From contig JAPNXP010000002.1 of assembly GCA_028753945.1 (NCBI GenBank), positions 1,178,001 to 1,242,000 on the forward strand: a DNA stretch of 64,000 bases. Direction: 5' to 3'. The notes beneath the pieces were generated by a model, which saw only the letters and a program-made list of their open reading frames with translations, ran no database searches and was not told where the DNA came from. Positions 10,737-42,482 of the stretch are shown piece by piece. Source of the stretch: Hexactinellida sp. DTS-2022 (lineage: Eukaryota; Porifera; Hexactinellida). The position numbers were made by a program, and so were the translations under genes. Each line of letters opens with the position of its first letter. The first letter of the stretch is position 1.

Positions 10737-13700
10737 ATGCCCCAAGAATCACGTACACATCCAGGAAACACACCAAAAATGAATCAGCACCCAATTCCCT
10801 ACCAATCATCCGCCTCTATCCCCGCCTATCATAATCCAGCGCACTTTATCGTTAGCGCGCCAACGCATATTGTAGCTCATGGTCAGCCTCAGTCGGCAGT
10901 CATTCTCGGTGAGTTTAATTTACTTATATTATGTAATGCAGACTTCTCCATTCATTGTTAGTAATTTATTTTCCAGACTTCGTAAAAAGTAATATTTATA
11001 AACCGTCTGATTTCAATTTTGAAATTATTCTGAATTTAATGAATTGTATTGAATAACAATGAGATCGGACTCAATGATTTATTGTTCAGAATTATTACTT
11101 TAAATTCTACAAATAATCTAGTTTGTAATTTGATCTCAATAAGATTAATTGAAGATTTCATTTATGAATAGTATTCATTACAAAATTAAAATTTAACACC
11201 TCCAAACTAATACCAATTCCTTATCTCTACCCCCCAAAGAATATACTATTCAAAGGTTAACTGAATACTTAATAATCTCAATTTGCAATATTTATTTCAA
11301 ATATTTTGAAGTGGAGTAATACTATTTAGCTATGATCGCATCCATCTTCAAAGCGAAGAAATAATATACTATAATCTTTGAACTTTTATCTCAGAATTAA
11401 ACTATTTATCTCTATTTGTATGGATTTTACCTCAAGAATCTGCACCTTTCTTCAGTGTTTGTCAAAACTCCCGAATAATATTTTGAATAGAAATATCCCA
11501 ATTTGACATGTCTTAAATTCACCAAAAATACTGTAGATCAATTATAATTTAATTAACCTAAGTTTGCTTTGCAAGTCAATTTAATGTGCAAGCTATATTT
11601 GACCAGATCAAAGTTGAAATCGCAGAATTTTCCTCATAGTTCAATTAATCATCTAATGTAAATAAAAATTAAATTAATGGAAAATTATGAAATATTCCTT
11701 AAAATTTTGAAATGGCCTCTGGTTTAATAATTATGGTAAATACAAATTGTGATAAAAGTTAGCTAACTTCAATGTTACTTCGTGGAGAGTATATTTCTTC
11801 AATTAATGCAATACAAGATTAGATCCCATTAGAAACCTCTGTTCTCAATATCAGTAATGACATTATCCTATCATTATCTATTACTAATGCAATCAACTGC
11901 GAATAGAGATATTATTAGTAATCTTCCACTTCTTCACCATTGTAATATATGTGAGATCTTGATCTGTGAGTATTCTAATTTCACCACTGATAATCTTAGA
12001 GCTGCTTTCTTTTATCTCATGTTAGGTACTATAAAGCAAAAATGTGAATCCAGCCTTGTTAGTTAGAGTGATACATAGAAAATATTCTTAATGCGTTTTA
12101 ATTAATTTTAATTATAAAACTAATTCGAACAATAAGAATTCCATAACTTTGTTCCATATCTATTTCCCTTTCAAGTGACAGAATATTTACTGTTATTGCT
12201 TTTAACAAACAGAGAAGTACGAGTAGTTTTATGGCTTATTCATGCAATGATTTGAGAATTGTTAGTTTTCTATCAACTCACCAATGTAGTGAATATTGTT
12301 TCCAAGTTAAAATATTCCCTGAATAGTAACCAATCACACTTGAATTAATCTATGCACTTATCTACATTTCACCCTTTGTGCATCGTATACGTCAACAACT
12401 TTGATGAATAACTAGAATTATCACATACATCTAGTTTCATATTATCTGCATAATCCTAGAACTGAGTCTGCATGTTTACTTGGCTGCATTATTCGTTAAA
12501 ATTTGAATCCTCAATACGTTGTTAACTTGAAAGAAATAAAGAATTTGCAGGCTCATTGATAAAAATAGTTTAAGAAATATACTGCCATTTACAGCTAGTT
12601 ACCCATCATAATAATATTGCGAATGCAACAATTTAGCAGAGATATCAAGTTCAAATCTGATGTTTTGTTTATGATTGTTGCTCATCATGATCTAATTCAG
12701 GATTCATACATACTTGGAATATTAGAAATGTTCCAACATAGATAGAAATTTAGTTAATTATTGAAAACTGAGAAAACCTTTCTCATCCCAACTTACTTTT
12801 CATTAATTAATTAACGGCTACTCCATTTACTTTAGGATTATCTTATCGTATAATTAACAGTTAAATTAATACTGTCAGAAACAAAAGCAACGAGATTCTG
12901 AATTGAAATCTGAGCTGACCAATTAAATTAAAATCTTAAAAATAGGTAATTATAATTCAATTAAGCTCTCTTAATACCCTAGCTTATTCTGTAATGCATT
13001 ATTATTTAGAGTTGTGTACAAGAGATGAAACACATCGTTCCTATTGACTATAAATACAGTGTATATTTCTAGGCGATATATTTTAATTGAATTAGAGAAA
13101 AGTTATAAAAATAAATATTACAAGTTTATTTGCAGTTAAAAATAGTATGCAATAATTCTCAGCCGATATAATTCAAGCTTTTTTTGAATATTTTATTAAT
13201 TAACGTAAATCTGCAATTTACTCCAAATCTGTATTCTTTTTTATACGAGTTTTAAATTATGAATTTGAAAGGGTTTCTAAGGGTATATTTTAAGGTACAA
13301 GAAAAACTTAATTAGAGAATCGGGAAAAATTAATATTAGTTTAACGCCATTTCTGTCTAAATTATGATATAATTTATTAAAAAATTTATATGATTTACGT
13401 CCTGTTTTCTCATGAAAATTGGACAGGCCCCCTTTATTCATATCTTCACCTTATTTAGGCAGCCCAAATGCAAGCCTTTATCCCGGCGCAAGTTTTGATT
13501 CAATGCACTTACGTATTCCATACCAACGCGGCAAGCAGCGTAGGCATAGGACTAATTTCACTGCGCAGCAATTGGAAGAATTGGAGAGAGCGTTTGAAAA
13601 GACTCGATATCCCGATGTCTTCATGAGAGAAGAACTGGCCATGCGAATCGCTCTAACTGAAGCAAGAGTACAGGTATGGAAAATATATATTTTGGTGGTT

Positions 13701-16700
13701 TTATTTTCTACGATAGGCTGTGCTAGCTTAGGCTGGGAATTAATTTATCACCGAATTGTAGTGTATCTATTGGTCACTCCTTCACAGGGCCCCCCCTGGG
13801 GAACTTTGAATCCCCCTGAGAATTCTTACTGTCGAATTAAACACTATTATATGCCCAGGGTTTTCATAATATATGGAACTCATTCCCCCTGCGATTCGGA
13901 TAGCTCCACCCACAACACTTTCTGGCAACTGGTCTGCTTCCTCATATATATTCATATAATTAGAAAATACGGATTTGTTAATAAAATTCTTGTCGACTGT
14001 CCTATTCACAAACATACATTGTCCAATCTATCTATTCATTAGCTACCAAAATTCATCAATTAAAATACATTAGAAGCTTTCATCACTTTAACTGACCCCT
14101 AAACAATAGGAATACAATTTAATAATTGTTAAGACTCACAGTCGATTGCAATGATAATAATTAGATTATAATCGAATCTGTTTGCAAAGTGATAACTTAT
14201 GAAGTGGATCCTCGAACAAAGCTAAATTGATCTATCTCTTATAAATTATATTATAGATACATCTGGGGCGTAGCACAGCTTAGATAGTGGTAGATAACAT
14301 TTTGTTAAATACTACTACAAAGCCATTAGTGATTTCATCAAACGAATCAAATGACCTTTAATGTATTTCTCAATTGTTAATACGGGTACCGATGGATATT
14401 TAAGTATGCATTTTACTAACATGAATTAATAATGAATGCAAACTTTGGACAGTAATAGAAAGTTTGTCTATATCGGATTTGAATATAGGTATGGTTTCAG
14501 AACAGAAGAGCCAAATGGCGCAAAACTGAAAAAAAGGACACTCCGACACAATCGTCAAGTGATCAGAAATCCACTAGTACCTCTAACTCCCCAGGAGCTG
14601 TAGCTCCCAAGAGTCCCTCATCTGGAATGAATATAGATTTGAACAAGAGTCGAATGGTGATGCCTGCGAAGGAAGAAAAGTCCCAAGATCCAGAAACTCC
14701 GTCAGGTGCACATAACTACCCTGGCTACGTACTATCATCTCCTAACAGAGTAAGTTATATGAGATTTTACCATTGAGATACAACATGCATAGTCATTGTT
14801 ATTTAATTGAATATTTGGTTAGCTTAAATGTGTTCATTTGTAAGCAGCTAGTTTAGAAATAGTTTGTTGCTAAGAGATTTTGATGTCTCACTTCACATTG
14901 ATTGCATACACACATATTTCTCAATAAAATTTTTGAGACGAATTTCCAATAAGACTTAGCAATCTTGTTAAGATTAGCAACTACGCAAAAATTTGCAGGT
15001 AGAAGCTAGACGAGATAGTTTTGTTGTCGGGTTCCCCGATAATAAAATAGTGTAAAAAGTTAATTAATCACTCTGACAACGGGATAGTATTTCAATAAAC
15101 TGAACACAAATTATTACTCAAGTAAATCATAGACTATTTTTCCAATTAAAAAAGTTTGAAAGTATAGAACGGCTGCGTATATACTTAATGGTCTCATTAG
15201 TTATTACGGCTATTCAGAGTCGATCTAGAACTAACTGTGTCTTGTTCTAATAAAGAAAACTGTGATTTTTTAATTGGCTAATAAATCTACCATTGCAAGT
15301 TAGAACATTATCATGGCTGTGGACTTATATATTCACAATAGCATCAGGATGTTAGTTTGCCCTTTCTTGTATCGTTTATCTTATCAAAACTCCAATTTAT
15401 TGATTTCTTAATTTTGTCAAGTACATGACATAATTTTATTGACCTATTGAGTCTAAATAATTGCAGTTGAAGTTGGTTTGAATAAAAGCTCTTCGCTAAG
15501 ACTATTTTTGAATAAATAAATAAGCTTAATATGTGTAATTAATATAGCATGGGCGTGCAAACAATGCCAACTAAACACGCAAAAGGCTCATAACTTATAA
15601 ATTTAACACTACGTATATGTAAATGTTCATACGATTCAATATAAAATGATTCGCCGTCTTTAGTCCTTACTAAAATATCAAACGTGTTTCATCTTAATAA
15701 TAATAATTATTATCTAATTAATAACTCCCTGGCGATATAATATTTCTCTCCTGATACAGTACAAACATAATAGCTTATGATTAATAAGTTAATAACGTAA
15801 GAGCTACACAAGTAATTTGAATATATTTGAGTTGAGCAATTAATTAATTATAAATATTATGACTTAAATTAGTTTGTATCTTGATCAAGTTAATTGTTCT
15901 ATTAAGTTTCTTGATGCAATTTTAATGAGTTTAAAATTTTCTCAAAAATAGACTAGTTTCTCAATTCTCACAATACTATTAATTTACCTCAAGAATTAAA
16001 TTAGAAATGGAATTTGGTAATTTTTTTATCTTACTATATCAAATGATACATAAGCTCGTGCAAAAGATTATGATGAATCACTAATGAATGACTTAAACAT
16101 TATGAATGCTAATTTAAAACCAGGAATTTAAATAACAGAAATACTAAGAAATGATTAATTAGATGATATTTTATTTTATCTGCTTAGTTACTTAATTATT
16201 GCGCAAATAAACGCTAATCTGTATTGAATTGAATCAATGAAGACAGTGACATATTGTTATATAGTAGCGAAAGTTAACGGATATTGAATGATTATTCAAA
16301 TTACATCAATATGCGAAATACTTCCTAACCAAATTTGGGTAAATATCCTAAATTCGCAACAACAAAATAGCAAATCTGTTATATTATTTAACAATACTTA
16401 GAAATTCCACTCAGCACAAATACTTGCGTTGCTTAATATATCACTTCTTCAGTTGACACGTTGACTGATTAAATAGTAATTAATCTTCGCAGCAAAATTT
16501 CCCCGCAGATTACATTTCAATTTTAACCATATTGAGCTTTAACTGGAATCTAATTACTTTATTTATTGGTAATAAGTATAATAATGGAGACATGATACAA
16601 ATATGTTTTTACAAGTTGTATTTTTATAGGATTATTCCAGTTACCCTCCTATAACGACATTAACACCAACCAGTGGAGAACCACATTCCATACACCCATC

Positions 16701-34494: not shown

Positions 34495-34690
34495 ACATAG
34501 CATCCTTCAGAATTGTGCTATGTCATCATATGATGACGTAATCGATATTTTGGGTGCGAAATATCGTGTTTTTATAACCTACTTTTACCATAGTTAAACT
34601 CGTTATAAATGTTCAAGATTGGAACATGATGATGCCCATAACTAGCTGAATAAAATATATCGAAATTATAAATGGAATGTTGACACATTC

Positions 34691-35073
34691 GGGGTGTATG
34701 CATTAGTTCGAATCTGTATGTAGGCGTTAGTTCGAATCCTGTATGTAGGCGTTAGTTCGAATAGAATTTGACTATGTAGGCGTTAGTTCGAATCGAATTT
34801 GACTATGTAGGCGTTAGTTCGAATAGAATTTGACAATGTAGGCATTAGTTCGAATAGAATTTGACTATGTAGGCGTTAGTTCGAATAGAATTTGACTATG
34901 TAGGCGTTAGTTCGAATAGAATTTGACTATGTAGGCGTTAGTTCGAATAGAATTTGACAATGTAGGCATTAGTTCGAATAGAATTTGACTATGTAGGCGT
35001 TAGTTCGAATAGAATTTGACTATGTAGGCGTTAGTTCGAATAGAATTTGACTATGTAGGCGTTAGTTCGAATC
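34691..35073. repeat. Left iteron array of the RING MULE, 31-bp unit
   Basis: About eleven tandem units contain TAGGCGTTAGTTCGAAT, with small changes such as GGCATTAG. The first two are shorter, with CTGTATG spacing. There are no spacers, so this is a tandem repeat and not CRISPR. It forms the TIR with 38110-38565. Confidence 0.9.
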
Positions 35074-36258
35074 GAAATCAGATATTATTTAAATTGTTAT
35101 TGATTTTCAATGATACATTGAAGTGTTGTTTAATTCCACAAATACGACACAATTGTTGTTATTTACATGACACATTTTGTTTCAAAAATCGAATACATAT
35201 CAATTTAGAAATTTTCACATATAAAAAGGAGAAACTTGTAGAAACAATAAACTTCAGTTTATGCAATGGAATACACTATTGACGAATATAGACGCAGCAA
35301 CGGTAAGATATTTTCTTCTTCGGATGGATTTAAATATTTTACTTGCAAAGTTATTGGGAATCAAGCTTATCTCAGATGCACTCTATTCAAAGACAAATGC
35401 AAAGGAACAGCCAAACTAGATCAAGAACGAAATTTGATATTTCCAAAAGGTCCACATAATCATCCTGTAGAAGATTATCGATCAAATATTTTCACATTGA
35501 AGACCAAATGTAAGAGAATAGCTCAAACCTCAGCAAGCAACCTCAGGGAAATATTTGACTCAACTACAAGGTCAGATCCTTCAGCATCTGCAATTTCATT
35601 TAAAGAGTGCGAATCCGCAATGTTCCGATCAAGGAGGAAGCTGCAGCCTAAGATTCCTCGTACAGCTTCTGAATTGTGTGAAATGTTGCCAACTACTGGG
35701 TTTGCAAAAAATTTGAAAGCTGTTGTAACCCAGAATAATGGTATAGGAGTTATTTTCTTCTCAGATGAGGTTGAAAGGATTGGATCAGACGTCAGTGAGA
35801 TTCAGTTCGATGGGACATTTCATACTGTACCCGATCAATTTTATCAGCTTTGGACCATTTTTTTCTCCGTAGGTTGACACACTCTTCCAGCTATCCATTG
35901 CCTTCTTACAAACAAAAAAGAAGAACTTTATAGTGCTGTCCTACATAAGATCAAACTTATAATTCCTCAATTCCAACCAACTCATGCAATGTCGGATTGG
36001 GAGCAGGCTGCCAGAAACGCATTCAAACAAGTATGTCCTGGCAGCAAAATGAATGGATGCTGGTTCCATTATACTCAAGCTGTTTGGCGAAGGACGCAAA
36101 AAGCTGGACTTGTGCAGAGTTTTCGAGAAAATCCTCAAGTCGCTTCGTTTTTGAGAAATATAATGGCCATACCTTTCCTTCCTCCAGATCTCATCCATCC
36201 GACATTTTCACAATTGCAGATTCCAACTCTAACTAATGATGATCGTCCTAAACTAGAA

Positions 36259-36668
36259 CAGGGCCGTGCCACTAATACAAACTGACCAGGTCAAACCTGG
36301 GTAGAATCTTTCCAGACCAGGTTCTGACCAGGTTGACCTGGTCATATGACCAGGTCAACTTCGTCATTTAACCAGGTTATGAATATTAATTAAATAAATA
36401 AAATTCGTGTAATGCACTGAAAAAAGTGGACTCCATCTAGAATCTAGATATTAGGTCTTTTTACTAAATACATGTAATTAAATTGATTATACTATATCGC
36501 TTTGTTAGTTATAAAGCTATTTAACATTTGGTGTGAAATATATATTTCAGATCATTTATCAAAATTACTGTGCGTTAAAAAAAGAAGAATTCTTTACCAT
36601 GGGTAGCAATGATGCTTACTCTAGTTAGGTTTGACCTGGGCAGGTATCAATAGGCTCGCACGGCCCTG
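36259..36668. mobile_element. 410-bp MITE inside the RING MULE transposase
   Basis: The ends CAGGGCCGTGC and GCACGGCCCTG are perfect inverted repeats. The 9-bp flanks AAACTAGAA (36250-36258) and AGACTAGAA (36669-36677) differ at one base. The interior near the left end repeats GACCAGGT and ACCTGGTC. Removing the element and one flank restores the transposase frame exactly. Confidence 0.85.
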
Positions 36669-36998
36669 AGACTAGAACAAACAATCAAATATTTCAAGAA
36701 ACAATGGCTAACTAGAATTGCTCCAGAAGAATTATCCATATTTGATGTTACAAAAGGGACAAATAACGGTGCGGAGAGTTATCACCGACAACTAAAGTCA
36801 AGAATTAAATGTGGTCACCAGAGAATTTGGAATTTCCTAAAAGTGTTAGATGAAATAATATCAGACACTGACAATGAATTCGCGAGATTACGACAAGGCA
36901 TGGAAACTACAAGACCAAGGAAGAAAAAGGATATAGCAAATGATGAGCGCCGTGTATTGTGTAAACAAAAGTTGACATCTGGAGATTACACTCCTTTG

Positions 36999-37706
36999 CA
37001 TGGCCGAATCATGGGTCTCTGGGATCATAGGCTGGGTAAAATTAGGGGCCCCCTCCCCCCTTCAATCAAAATATGGATCACAAAATAACTAGTATATTTA
37101 ATTGTATGATCACGATCCCTTCGGTCTCAAGTTAACTGGCGCTACGCGGCCTTACTCCTGATCAAACAATAAATTACATAGTTTGTTAATAATTGTCTTA
37201 GTCATATACATCCCATCCCTTCAAGCATTTTGCATACTCACAATATGTTACGTAAAACCCAATGAAAGCCTACTTCTGGGTCGATTTTGAATTTTAATTA
37301 ATTTGTTCACCTATTTGTGTAAACAACAACAACACTAACAACAACAACAACAACAACAATTATTGAAATTAGAAATTTGTAACTGCGAAATTTGAAATCA
37401 GCATACTTGTTTACCAATTATAAAATTTTGAAGTTAGTGTCTATCTCAATAATAAATGCGGTTTCGATTCCCCCATCACTTTAATACACCCGGCAAACAC
37501 AAACACACACAAACAAAGAAACAATCGTGCTTTTAATATATAGATTGTAATTTAATTACTTATTAGTAGGCCAATAATTACGTTTTGATAGATCAACAAT
37601 GTATTAATTAATGTAAAAACTTACGACGAGCAGATTATATCGGGCCCCCAGAATCGACGGGCCCCTAGGCTGCAGCCTACTTAGCCTATTGGGTGATCCG
37701 GCCCTG
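36999..37706. mobile_element. hAT-like element inside the RING MULE transposase
   Basis: The ends CATGGCCGAATCATGGG and TGATCCGGCCCTG are inverted relatives, flanked by perfect CTCCTTTG (36991-36998 and 37707-37714). It contains a Helitron-like repeat. Precise removal joins two halves of the transposase frame just upstream of the RING finger. Confidence 0.85.
37108..37544 (-). mobile_element. Helitron-like repeat, third nesting level
   Basis: This copy matches the family at 22.7 and 28.5 kb: TCTATATATTAAAAGC start in minus orientation, GT-rich tract, about one 141-bp unit with an expanded AACAAC stretch, and a CCCTTCGGTCTC GC-rich end. It has no coding content. Confidence 0.5.
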
Positions 37707-38109
37707 CTCCTTTGCAATTTCTCAAGTCAATAAGTCATACCTTGGGACATGTTACGGAAGAGAAAGAAGATGACATCTCAGACATTTCTGATTGTCCCGG
37801 TTCTGATCACGAGATTGAGACAAATAACTCTAATCTAGTATGCGTAGTTTGTATGCAAAGAAGACAAACTACTTGGATCTTTCTCCCTTGTCGGCATGCC
37901 AATTGCTGTGGAGAATGTAGCAGCATGATAGAACAATTAGATCAGCAATGTCCAACATGCCGCACTCCAATTGCAAGTAGACTACAAATATTTCTTGAAT
38001 AATTAATTGTTTTTTCTTTGATTTAATAATACTATCTTAAATAATTAAATGGACATGTGGAATCATGTTTGCAATAGCCACTGTCGGTCTAATTAAATTA
38101 TTTTATTCG

Positions 38110-38565
38110 AACTAAAATAGTCAAATACAATTCGAACTAACGCCTACATAGTCAAATTCTATTCGAACTAACGCCTACATAGTCAAATTCTATTCGAACT
38201 AACGCCTACATAGTCAAATTCTATTCGAACTAACGCCTACATAGTCAAATACGATTCGAACTAACGCCTACATTGTCAAATTCTATTCGAACTAACGCCT
38301 ACATAGTCAAATACGATTCGAACTAACGCCTACATAGTCAAATTCTATTCGAACTAACGCCTACATAGTCAAATTCTATTCGAACTAATGCCTACATTGT
38401 CAAATTCTATTCGAACTAACGCCTACATAGTCAAATTCTATTCGAACTAATGCCTACATTGTCAAATTCTATTCGAACTAACGCCTACATAGTCAAATTC
38501 TATTCGAACTAACGCCTACATACAGGATTCGAACTAACGCCTACATACAGATTCGAACTAATGCA
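38110..38565. repeat. Right iteron array of the RING MULE, 31-bp unit
   Basis: About fourteen units contain ATTCGAACTAACGCCTAC, inverted relative to the left array. The last two, with CATACAG, mirror the first two of the left arm. TTCGAA is palindromic in every unit. Confidence 0.9.
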
Positions 38566-38820
38566 GCGCCCCCACACATTCCTCGTTTGCCAGGGAAATG
38601 TATATTTCCTAAAATGAGCCATAACTCAAAAACTATCGATTTTATGTAAACTGGGGTAGTTCTGATCTATCCGGAATAGGTAACTTCCTATTCATTGATA
38701 ATACATAAATTATACTTAACTTCATTAACTTTTGAGATAATGAGATAATTATCAAATAATTTTTCTAAGCTAATTATCTCATTATCTCAAAAGTTAATGA
38801 AGTTAAGCATAATTTATGTA

Positions 38821-39006
38821 CAGTGGAGTCTCTGAATAACGGACACGTTGGGGGCATGGATTTTGTCCGTTGTAGAGAGATGTCCGCTTCTCGGAGTCTG
38901 GTCCTTAACTATTAAATGCATAAAAAATTATTTCCGTTCCACGAGGTCTGTCCGTTGTAGAGGGGTTGTCCGCTTCTCGGAGTGTCCGTTTTGGGAGACT
39001 CTACTG
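38821..39006. mobile_element. pogo-like MITE nested in the outer foldback element
   Basis: The ends CAGTGGAGTCTCTGAATAAC and GGAGACTCTACTG have TA on both sides (38819-38820 and 39007-39008). GTCCGTTGTAGAG motifs occur in the interior. The surrounding foldback reads continuously across the site when it is removed. Confidence 0.8.
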
Positions 39007-39375
39007 TATTATCAATGAATAGGAAATTACCTATTCCGGATAGATCAGAACTAGCCCAGTTTACATAAAATCGATAGTTTTTGAGTTATGGCTCATTTTA
39101 GGAAATATACATTTCCCTGGCAACCGAGGAATGTGTCAACATTCCATTTATAATTTCGATATATTTTATTCAACTAGTTATGGGTATCATCATATTCCAT
39201 TCTGAAGGATGCTATGTATACCTTGATACCAAGTTCCTATATAGTTATAGTGCATTTATGACGTCTATCATTACTAGTTATGGAGATAAATATAATTTAT
39301 CAATGGACTCTTATTTCCTACTATGATTCGGCAGCAGGTATAGCCGTATTATAGTAGGCCATGATGGAATACAGA

Positions 39376-39560
39376 CTTTTCGTGACAAGACTTTTCGTGA
39401 CGAGACATTTCGTGACGGACTTTTCGTGACACGACTTTTCGTGACAGGGACTTTTCGTGACAAGACTTTTCGTGACAGGGACTTTTCGTGACAAGACTTT
39501 TCGTGACAAGACTTTTCGTGACAGGGACTTTTCGTGACAAGACTTTTCGTGACAAGATGG
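39376..39560. repeat. Left iteron array of the intact MULE, 15-17 bp unit
   Basis: Units of ACTTTTCGTGAC are followed by AAG, AGGG, ACG or GG. Several overlapping open frames on the minus strand translate to repeated SRKV/CHEKS; they are artefacts of the array. Confidence 0.9.
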
Positions 39561-39708
39561 GTACTCTTTACACATGGATACATGTAATAATTTTATAATC
39601 GTGGGGTTACTGAATCAAGCTTACAATTTTCTATAAGTAGGGAGTTCAAATATTTATGGTGTATATCGTTAAATATATTATTTATTCGTTAACGTAAGAG
39701 TATTCGTT

Positions 39709-41415
39709 ATGAGTTATACTAAATGCCCGCCTACTGGTAACAATTCGCCAGAGAACGACCCTGTACATTACAATCCAATGCACTCAACATTAACAGACTA
39801 TGGTTCTAGTGACACATATGATTTACCTCCAGGTCCATTGTCAGTGTTTTCAGTTTCCCCTGAAGATGACGAAATCGTCAATTTATCGGATCCATTTTCG
39901 CCAGATCACTCTACACCTACTGTTTCACTTTCATGCGAATCTGTGGACGACGAAGATTACGATGAGTTAGATAGTTACATAGGTAATCCTACTCTTACTG
40001 AACTAGCGTTCTGTGAAACATCTAAGGGTGGATTGATGATGTTAGAAGGCGATTTTTCTTATTCTAAACACTGTGTTACCGGAGATGTTACACAATGGCA
40101 GTGTGTTCAGAGAGATTACTGCAAAGCAAGGTTGCACACAAGGGGAAATGAAGTAATAGCCAGAAAGAATATACATTCTCATGAGTGTAATCCTCATATA
40201 TTTTTCAACAGTCAGGCTAAAGCTGGAATGAAACGCAAAGCTTCTGAAAGTCAGGAAGCAACGCATTCAATCATGACAGCTTCTATTAGCGAATTGAATG
40301 ATCAATCTGCTGTTCATCTACCCAAAATCAATAGCCTGAAGAGAACTATAGTGAGAAGCAGAAGAAAAGCCGAGAATGTTCCGCCTGAACCATTATCACT
40401 ACATCATCTCTCTATACCACAAAGCTATACTAAAACAAAAAAGGACCAACAATTTTTGCTCTACGATTCTGGTGCGGAAAGTGGAAATCAGAGGATTGTA
40501 ATCTTCGGAACTCAGGCTAATGTGGAGTTACTCTCATCTGCAACTGTTTGGCTAGCTGATGGCACCTTTAAAACAGTGCCTAGCTTGTTTTATCAACTCT
40601 ACGTGATACATGCTTTGAAAGGAGGTCCTGATTTGATTTTCACCGGTCATATTTTTCCAAGTTTATACATATTGCTACCGAACAAGACCCAGCAAACATA
40701 TTCAAACATGTGGAATAAAGTACTTGATTTATGTCCAACCGCTTGCCCGACACATCTAATTGTGGATTTTGAAATTGCCTCGATTAATGCATTTTCACAA
40801 TACTTCCCAACTACGAAGGTTCAGGGCTGTTTTTTTCACCTATGCCAAAATGTCTGGCGTAAAGTTCAACATTTTGGACTAGCAGCAAGATATAAGCAAG
40901 ATGTCGAATTTGCAATAAAAGTGCGAATGCTACCTGCACTCGCGTTTGCAACTCCTACTGACATACCCGAACTTTTCAACAACCTTTTCTTGCAACTACC
41001 TGTGGAAGCTTACGATCTGGCACTATACTTTGAAGCGACTTATATTGGTAGACATATCGCTAATTCCCCCCTTTTGTCATCACCATTATTTCCAATGGAA
41101 ATGTGGAACAACCACTTCATGGTTCAGCATGGGTTACCAAGGACAAATAATGCAGTTGAGGCATGGCACCGCTCATTTGCTTGTCACATGTCTTGTCACC
41201 ATCCTTCTGTATGGCGTTTTCTAACCATACTTAAGAGAGAACAGGGGTTGGTTGAAGTAAAACAGGCGTTTTATATAAGTGGGCGCAATCCATCGAAACG
41301 CAGAAATTTTGAAGATAGAGAAAAAGCGTTAGAAAATTTAGTTGAGAGCTATTTACTGCGGCCAAAGTTTGAGTTCTTAAGGGGAGTTTCCTATCATTTT
41401 ACTTTTCATGATTGA
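39709..41415 (+). CDS. MULE transposase (568 aa, DDE, FLYWCH-like N-terminus), apparently intact
   Basis: It is predicted to excise and insert its element in the nucleus. The single uninterrupted frame starts at the first ATG past the left arm. Residues 1-95 are acidic and Ser/Pro-rich. Residues about 100-165 form a FLYWCH-like zinc finger (WQCVQRDYCKARLHTRG, then HSHEC). The catalytic core shows WLADGTFKTVP (D284), LIVDFEIAS (D353), GCFFHLCQNVWRK and RTNNAVEAWHRSF (E484), matching the Mutator DDE pattern with its C-x-H between the second D and the E. It lacks the RING finger of the neighbouring MULE and ends FTFHD. It lies on the plus strand between inverted iteron arms. No intron is needed. 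Confidence 0.9.
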   Translation: MSYTKCPPTGNNSPENDPVHYNPMHSTLTDYGSSDTYDLPPGPLSVFSVSPEDDEIVNLSDPFSPDHSTPTVSLSCESVDDEDYDELDSYIGNPTLTELAFCETSKGGLMMLEGDFSYSKHCVTGDVTQWQCVQRDYCKARLHTRGNEVIARKNIHSHECNPHIFFNSQAKAGMKRKASESQEATHSIMTASISELNDQSAVHLPKINSLKRTIVRSRRKAENVPPEPLSLHHLSIPQSYTKTKKDQQFLLYDSGAESGNQRIVIFGTQANVELLSSATVWLADGTFKTVPSLFYQLYVIHALKGGPDLIFTGHIFPSLYILLPNKTQQTYSNMWNKVLDLCPTACPTHLIVDFEIASINAFSQYFPTTKVQGCFFHLCQNVWRKVQHFGLAARYKQDVEFAIKVRMLPALAFATPTDIPELFNNLFLQLPVEAYDLALYFEATYIGRHIANSPLLSSPLFPMEMWNNHFMVQHGLPRTNNAVEAWHRSFACHMSCHHPSVWRFLTILKREQGLVEVKQAFYISGRNPSKRRNFEDREKALENLVESYLLRPKFEFLRGVSYHFTFHD

Positions 41416-41579
41416 AGAGTTCCTTACGTAGGGATAATTATTTATATTTCTTTTAGCAAGGGTTAGAAATATTTACAAATAATATCACTTATATTTTATG
41501 TTCACAATAAAATCATCATGACTTTGTCTTACATCTCTTGTTATATAAGCTTGATTCATTAACCACAACAATTATAGAA

Positions 41580-41713
41580 CAGGGCCGTAGCAAGAGATCT
41601 GCGGTCCGGAAATTGCCGGAACAGTTATATATTAAACAATGTTAATTATATTGTTGAAGGGCAGCTATACTGATGATGGCCGGAAGTGTTTTCATGAACT
41701 TGATACGGCCATG
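41580..41713. mobile_element. Short hAT-like MITE downstream of the intact transposase
   Basis: The ends CAGGGCCGTAGCA and TGATACGGCCATG are inverted relatives. TAGAA occurs on both sides. The flank match is short, so the boundaries are tentative. Confidence 0.45.
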
Positions 41714-41735
41714 TAGAATATTAAATTATTACATG

Positions 41736-42261
41736 GATATGTTGCAGTCCAAGTGCGTTTCAACGCCAAACGCGTTTGGCGCATTTTAATTCAGCCAAAC
41801 GCGTTTGGCGTGTTTATATACGCCATTCGCGTTTCTAACATTATTTCTTTATATTTGGTGTTATTTCATTCAAATTTTGTTCAACAATACAATAATTTTG
41901 AATTATTCGGAATTATATTTCCCTCTAAGGCGAGGGACATATTGTTCAATTACTTAGTTTTGAACGTGAAATGTTTTTAATTCACAATGGTTTTAAATAT
42001 TTAGTATAAGTCGCAATGGTATTATTTTAGTACAGAGATTAAAATTAACAGTAAATATTGTAGAACAGATATTTGAATATTAATTAGATACATACTCTGT
42101 TTGTGAATAATCTAATTAGCATTATTAATTAAATGACACCAAATATAAAGAAATAATGTTAGAAACGCGAATGGCGTATATAAACACGCCAAACGCGTTT
42201 GGCTGAATTAAAATGCGCCAAACGCGTTTGGCGTTGAAACGCACTTGGACTGCAACATATC
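41736..42261. mobile_element. Foldback MITE in the right arm of the intact MULE
   Basis: The arms carry GATATGTTGCAGTCCAAGTG and its complement, then repeated CCAAACGCGTTTGG palindromes and GTTTATATACGCCATTCGCG, continuing to about 41865 and from about 42130. It separates the iteron array from the body of the MULE on the right side only; the left arm lacks it. CATG occurs at both junctions. No coding frame is present. Confidence 0.75.
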
Positions 42262-42287
42262 CATGTGTAAAGAGTACCCATCTTGTC

Positions 42288-42463
42288 ACGAAAATTCTTG
42301 TCACGAAAAGTCCCTGTCACGAAAAGTCTTGTCACGAAAAGTCCCTGTCACGAAAAGTCTTGTCACGAAAAGTCCCTGTAACGAAAAGTCGTGTCACGAA
42401 AAGTCGTGTCACGAAAAGTCCGTCACGAAATGTCTCGTCACGAAAAGTCTTGTCACGAAAAGT
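42288..42463. repeat. Right iteron array of the intact MULE
   Basis: Inverted copies of the left-arm unit (GTCACGAAAAGT) with one GTAACGAAAAG variant. The unit order mirrors 39376-39560, with one local rearrangement. Confidence 0.9.
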
Positions 42464-42482
42464 CTGTATCCCGGCCATGATG

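Follow-up and report, generated by a model that had tools for sequence, protein, structure and literature searches.

A copy of a Mutator-like element (MULE) lies in a 64,000-nucleotide stretch of contig JAPNXP010000002.1 of Hexactinellida sp. DTS-2022 (hereafter the window; C11:1178001-1242000 of the genome searched, which comprises 112 Mb in 18 contigs). The copy spans window positions 34691-38573 and carries, between long terminal inverted repeats (TIRs) made of iterons, the parts of a transposase followed by a RING finger that resembles those of inhibitor of apoptosis (IAP) proteins. The features of this copy, including the target-site duplication (TSD), were as follows.

34683..34690, no strand: left TSD ACACATTC, the same 8-bp word as at 38574-38581
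34691..35076, + strand: left iteron TIR, 31-bp units, 10.8 copies in 34742-35076
34695-34762: outer array of 25-bp units inside the left TIR
35266..35877, + strand: transposase piece 1, in which a FLYWCH-like finger is followed by the first stretch of the DDE core (first catalytic D), ending at an in-frame TGA
35878..36260, + strand: transposase piece 2, DDE core with the second D
36261..36670, no strand: insertion 1, flanked by ACTAGAACA, with the ends GGGCCGTGC...GCACGGCCC, then CTGAG
36671..37000, + strand: transposase piece 3, in which the DDE core finishes (NNGAE) and the C-terminal part follows
37001..37706, no strand: insertion 2, flanked by CTCCTTTGCA
37707..38002, + strand: piece 4, closing residues of the ancestral C-terminus, followed by an acidic linker, the C3HC4 RING, the tail SRLQIFLE and a stop
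38117..38573, - strand: right iteron TIR, 31-bp units, 13.1 copies in 38117-38522
38574..38581, no strand: right TSD ACACATTC

Four open pieces were found between the TIRs on the + strand (35251-35877, 35878-36285, 36654-37088 and 37697-38002), and the Pfam order along 35251-38002 was FLYWCH, MULE DDE and C3HC4 RING. Piece 1 matched FLYWCH (PF04500) with an E-value of 2.9e-4 and 21.4 bits, which is under the Pfam cut-off of 23.6, piece 2 matched the MULE domain (PF10551; E 1.4e-8, 35.5 bits against a cut-off of 27.6), piece 4 matched a RING (PF13920, zf-C3HC4_3; E 1e-12), and the Pfam search of the piece at 36654-37088 gave no match. These matches and the inverted 31-bp arrays bear out an earlier reading made from the sequence only, which had placed the three domains in this order between matching iteron TIRs. 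That reading had also described a frame running without a break across two removable insertions into the RING; the order through the pieces held and both insertions are real, but the transposase frame is interrupted by an in-frame TGA at 35875-35877. The insertions (36261-36670 and 37001-37706) are bordered by duplications of 9-10 bp, and both are small elements whose short ends are inverted (GGGCCGTGC; by eye about GGCCGxATCA). When searched separately, with none joined, the window pieces were collinear with one intact 533-aa open reading frame (ORF), L031 on C6, the identities being 65% for piece 1 (L031 residues 1-203), 66% for piece 2 (206-333), 63% for piece 3 (330-439) and 57% for piece 4 (437-532). 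With one in-frame TGA and two insertions the window copy is dead, yet its architecture is genuine. A chance order of domains is excluded, because many further copies share the FLYWCH-DDE-RING order.

The outer ends were set by alignment to an empty site. The element had inserted into an older palindrome (34616-39203), one arm of which is now divided into 34616-34690 and 38574-38705, while the other arm (ca. 39005-39203) is unbroken and represents the empty site. Since the flanks plus one ACACATTC align through the junction to the unbroken arm, the ends were placed at 34691 and 38573, with an 8-bp TSD at 34683-34690 and 38574-38581. The extent first proposed, 35266..38002, therefore describes the coding part, and the whole element is larger. 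The left and right TIRs are 96% complementary across 378 nt. The three features tested for assignment to the MULEs, a PF10551 domain, long TIRs and an 8-bp TSD, were all found, and the TSD range reported for MULEs is 8-10 bp (PMC5225508). The animal Phantom/Muta MULEs, such as Muta1 of Aedes aegypti, resemble the present element in their DDE core, long TIRs and TSDs of 8-10 bp, and in an N-terminal FLYWCH (PMC5225508, PMC6446971), for which the window piece scored under the Pfam cut-off. The Phantom row of a published survey gives no additional domain, FLYWCH or SWIM, and no RING (PMC6446971), whereas a C-terminal RING is a family feature here.

When the genome was searched with the RING piece, 592 candidates passed a first look; 150 of them were scored, and all of these had E < 1e-16; an open frame of at least 500 aa was present at 14 of these 150. 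Each search yielded 493 to 592 candidates, of which 150 were scored, one result contributing the 46 of its 150 rows that looked new, and the union comprised at least 221 RING places among the matches listed. Transposase sequence lay upstream on the same strand in 29 of the 30 RING loci fetched with 1.5 kb of upstream flank (the window's own included; L006 was the exception). Conversely, among the first 100 of the 150 MULE matches that were scored, 67 had a same-strand RING match within 3 kb downstream, and for 61 of these the distance was 250-450 bp. Intact copies, a search for which had been proposed with the original reading, were found: relatives carry the FLYWCH-DDE-RING order in a single ORF of ca. 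530 aa, the RING lying inside single stop-to-stop frames of 527-609 codons. PF10551 was present in all 15 full-length relatives, and FLYWCH was detected at E ≤ 0.01 in 7 of the 15 by Pfam; the model of L031 matched the FLYWCH domain 2rpr (Foldseek E 6.3e-3). Outside this genome, confirmed relatives were found neither in IMG/VR (95 pattern matches, 0 confirmed) nor in GTDB genomes (84 pattern matches, 0 confirmed).

No listed RING lay within 3 kb of the remaining 33 of the first 100 MULE matches. The downstream DNA was read for three of these and held, respectively, an intact in-frame RING, a frameshifted RING, and neither a RING nor a transposase end. RING decay is thus seen among the relatives, and no clean RING-less copy inside the RING clade was found among the three of the 33 candidates read downstream, 30 being unread. 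A strict RING pattern was present in 21 of a set made up of 34 loci with a usable ORF and the neighbouring element of the window. Six of 40 loci (L032, L051, L052, L053, L063 and L065) had been excluded for an ORF of <420 aa or a missing filter motif and are absent from the transposase tree; inspection by eye showed a RING in L032 and no RING in the remaining five (of which L051 alone was scanned with Pfam). An inverted pair of repeats more than 1.2 kb apart was found in 22 of the 24 RING-lineage loci examined, with none at L042 and L044. Most tandem units measure 31-32 bp in the branch of the window copy and 24, 29 or 53 bp in the other branch, where L044 and L067 have units of 62-64 bp. Some copies are identical or nearly identical (L033/L034, L050/L062 and L048/L049), from which it follows that the lineage has been active recently. 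The proteins of L033 (C13:4112034) and L034 (C13:4116757) are identical and lie in opposite orientation, with their RINGs ca. 4.4 kb apart.

The residues expected of a functional RING are kept. All eight C3HC4 zinc ligand columns were invariant in 15 aligned proteins, and both the linchpin Arg that follows the final zinc Cys and the Pro of CPxC were kept in 33 of 33 RING sequences, a set that includes a stop letter in L007, L013 and L030 and a shifted tail in L016. The Pro of CPxC contacts the ubiquitin-conjugating enzyme (E2). A tail aromatic stands at +10, exactly the spacing of cIAP1, in 30 of 31 rows (one re-registered by eye, and L030 with a stop in the tail). The linchpin Arg functions in ubiquitin transfer, and IAP-type RINGs dimerise via the RING, the tail and the preceding helix (PMC6349121). 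The best sequence match of the window RING in the PDB was the RING of cIAP2 (BIRC3; E 5.9e-7), and the fold list from VIA-align, based on monomer predictions, was headed by cIAP2 and cIAP1 with other RINGs tied. A linchpin Arg and a tail aromatic at the cIAP1 spacing are shared with the RINGs of cIAP1, cIAP2 and XIAP, and with IDOL, and the predicted RING fold with a preceding helix is consistent with theirs. These observations support the assignment to the IAP type that had been made at the outset, by residues and by tail and linchpin spacing; the fold is consistent with it but not decisive. Unlike cIAP1, cIAP2 and XIAP, the protein joins its RING to a transposase, through a linker of ca. 25 residues, and has no BIR: Pfam gave no BIR match in the 15 full-length relatives or in the window pieces. 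The RING-bearing protein is, for want of a BIR, not an IAP. The linker before the RING is acidic and usually also contains Ser (SDSExSDEE-like). As to a donor of the RING, BIR matches numbered seven genome-wide, and no RING was seen by eye in these seven loci (ca. 3.2 kb each, ORFs of at least 120 aa). Five of the BIR domains (L071-L075, C5:4489675-4500492) lie within ca. 11 kb, with no RING by eye, and the ORFs of most of them contain long stretches that are repeated or of low complexity.

In a maximum-likelihood tree of the transposase parts (36 rows, midpoint-rooted, with two of the outside rows long-branched), the RING bearers formed one clade with a support of 100/100. This clade held the 21 RING proteins, the DDE piece of the window and four further rows whose ends are decayed or truncated (L039, L040, L059 and L068), and 10 RING-less rows lay outside it. 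RING-less copies of the element had been named as a finding that would speak against an ancestral fusion; RING-less MULEs do exist, as other lineages, a statement that covers the matches without a listed RING apart from the 30 of 33 left unread. The argument for gain over loss is one of parsimony, from which we infer that the RING was gained. Four RING-less FLYWCH-MULE proteins (L054-L056 and L060) terminate at a motif like LEFLRxISxNLSF, which by eye resembles the YLxxISxTIG that precedes the RING linker, so the RING appears to extend a former C-terminus. The distances of the RING and of the transposase were correlated (Mantel r 0.857, 15 proteins; matched by 0 of 9999 permutations), which gives no sign of RING swapping. 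Intact ORFs with the same order, common iteron TIRs and a single RING clade support the view that the RING is part of the transposase gene and ancestral to the family, in line with the earlier proposal that the fusion is ancestral to the window copy.

The RING also looks to be under purifying selection. The ratio of nonsynonymous to synonymous substitution (dN/dS) for L042/L043 was 0.178 in the transposase and 0.070 in the RING (3 of the 21 RING rows having been omitted as identical or near-identical), and the RING values for L018 versus L021, L026 and L027 were 0.12-0.14; these four selected pairs are the ones trusted. Synonymous distances (dS) of the RING were saturated in 250 of 378 pairs, and the 79 pairs with dS of 0.2-2 gave dN/dS from 0.09 to 0.86 (median 0.32). 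High values such as that of L022/L057 come from distant pairs with dN > 0.5, whose silent sites are unreliable. The fusion looks old and maintained by selection.

The literature covered (titles and abstract starts, without subscription papers, preprints and Repbase) contained no lineage of MULEs in which an IAP-type RING is fused at the C-terminus, which agrees with the first impression that this is not a standard MULE architecture, whereas RINGs as such are known from MULEs: among 1631 autonomous MULEs surveyed in 2019, a RING is encoded by an ORF of its own in one Ghost element, and a C3HC4 ring is recorded for one element of Phytophthora, 37_Pi (PMC6446971). In the Ghost MULE, from Myzus cerasi, the RING ORF measures 420 bp and occurs together with a truncated transposase ORF, and its TIRs were not found; 37_Pi appears as one row of a table, within a group that carries SWIM (PMC6446971). 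In RAG1 and Chapaev, too, a RING and a DDE transposase or recombinase form a single protein (PMC4411706, PMC13107022), and according to a 2015 paper no known transposable elements beyond these two encode RING and Chapa domains (PMC4411706). They belong to another superfamily, and the RING of RAG1 is N-terminal in contrast to the C-terminal RING here; with a PF10551 core and a C-terminal RING, the present element is not a member of Chapaev/RAG1. Domains acting on protein tags are also known from other transposons. Ginger1 transposases end in an OTU or Ulp1 domain, which has been suggested to take part in repair, and some Mutator elements encode an Ulp1 domain (PMC2836005). Those domains are tag-removing proteases, whereas the ligase-type domain described here would add a tag.

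Based on these results, the following model is put forward. The RING probably has ubiquitin ligase (E3) activity, judging from its conserved residues, and what is fused to the transposase is very probably an E3 domain that works as a dimer. That a MULE lineage acquired such a C-terminal dimeric IAP-type RING once, long ago, and that it works mainly in cis, is a reading to which we give about an even chance. The RING would have been joined directly after the ancestral C-terminus through a flexible acidic linker. FLYWCH would bind the iteron TIRs and the DDE core would cut and join, while a RING dimer would recruit charged E2 (E2~ubiquitin) to the transposase complex and might also help to pair two transposase subunits. 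The transposase, its partner proteins and the chromatin near the complex would be ubiquitylated mainly in cis, which could clear the complex after strand transfer and limit the transposase level. The favoured substrate, by analogy with RAG1, is the transposase and its complex; the RAG1 RING is an E3 whose targets are RAG1 itself and histone H3 (PMC4411706, PMC13107022).

Other explanations were weighed against this model. MULEs tend to pick up fragments of host genes (PMC6446971), and the RING could be a chance fusion, namely a captured exon or a host gene adjoining a single copy, as the initial reading had itself foreseen as a possible refutation. This is highly improbable, given that 29 of 30 RING loci have transposase upstream, that the RING recurs on the same strand downstream of 67 among the first 100 MULE matches, with a distance of 250-450 bp in 61 cases, and that it lies inside the TIRs in the window and in single frames of 527-609 codons in the relatives. 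A captured exon, a neighbouring gene and a one-copy artefact are ruled out by shared position, a single clade and co-divergence. It is also conceivable that the RING serves architecture alone, bringing together by dimerisation the transposase subunits bound at the two ends, and does not act as a ligase. Dimerisation of IAP-type RINGs (PMC6349121) would fit this, as would the naming of the RAG1 RING region as a ring zinc finger dimerisation domain (PMC7204232), but the linchpin Arg and the CPxC Pro are both kept in 33 of 33 sequences, and we consider a purely architectural role unlikely.

The RING may instead act in trans on a host restriction, repair or cell-death factor, as an anti-apoptotic tool by which cells bearing transposon-made breaks would survive, or would repair them to the advantage of the element. 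Its IAP-like sequence, tail spacing and fold (the fold list being tied with other RINGs) point in this direction, and so do the ubiquitin and SUMO proteases of other transposons, for which a role in host repair has been proposed (PMC2836005). Against it, no BIR was found beside the RING by Pfam in 15 members, and the linker of ca. 25 residues tethers the RING to the transposase, which favours nearby substrates; action in trans is accordingly a minor possibility. A similarly small chance is given to the proposal that, whenever the element inserts or excises, a dimer of the transposase ubiquitylates proteins of repair, chromatin or cell death at the break, so that the germ cell survives and the element spreads. 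If the host-directed reading were true, a RAG1-like solution would have been arrived at independently in the Mutator superfamily. This is a second transposase superfamily with a ligase-type RING, placed at the opposite end of the protein and kept through deep divergence. That a second superfamily gained and kept a RING suggests that ubiquitin tagging is useful to transposition itself, and the intact copies make a gain from an own ligase directly testable.

A second MULE, which is RING-less, adjoins the first (window 39366-42473). It contains an intact 568-aa ORF (39709-41415) with FLYWCH (E 5.6e-7) and MULE (E 4.8e-12) domains, and its TIRs consist of 15-bp iterons (AGACTTTTCGTGACA), with a hairpin further inside (41731-41870/42127-42266) at 99%. 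Matches that score equally elsewhere suggest recent copies of this element. In another part of the window, a hint of an animal host comes from an ORF at 13419-14042 that contains, by eye, a homeodomain-like stretch.
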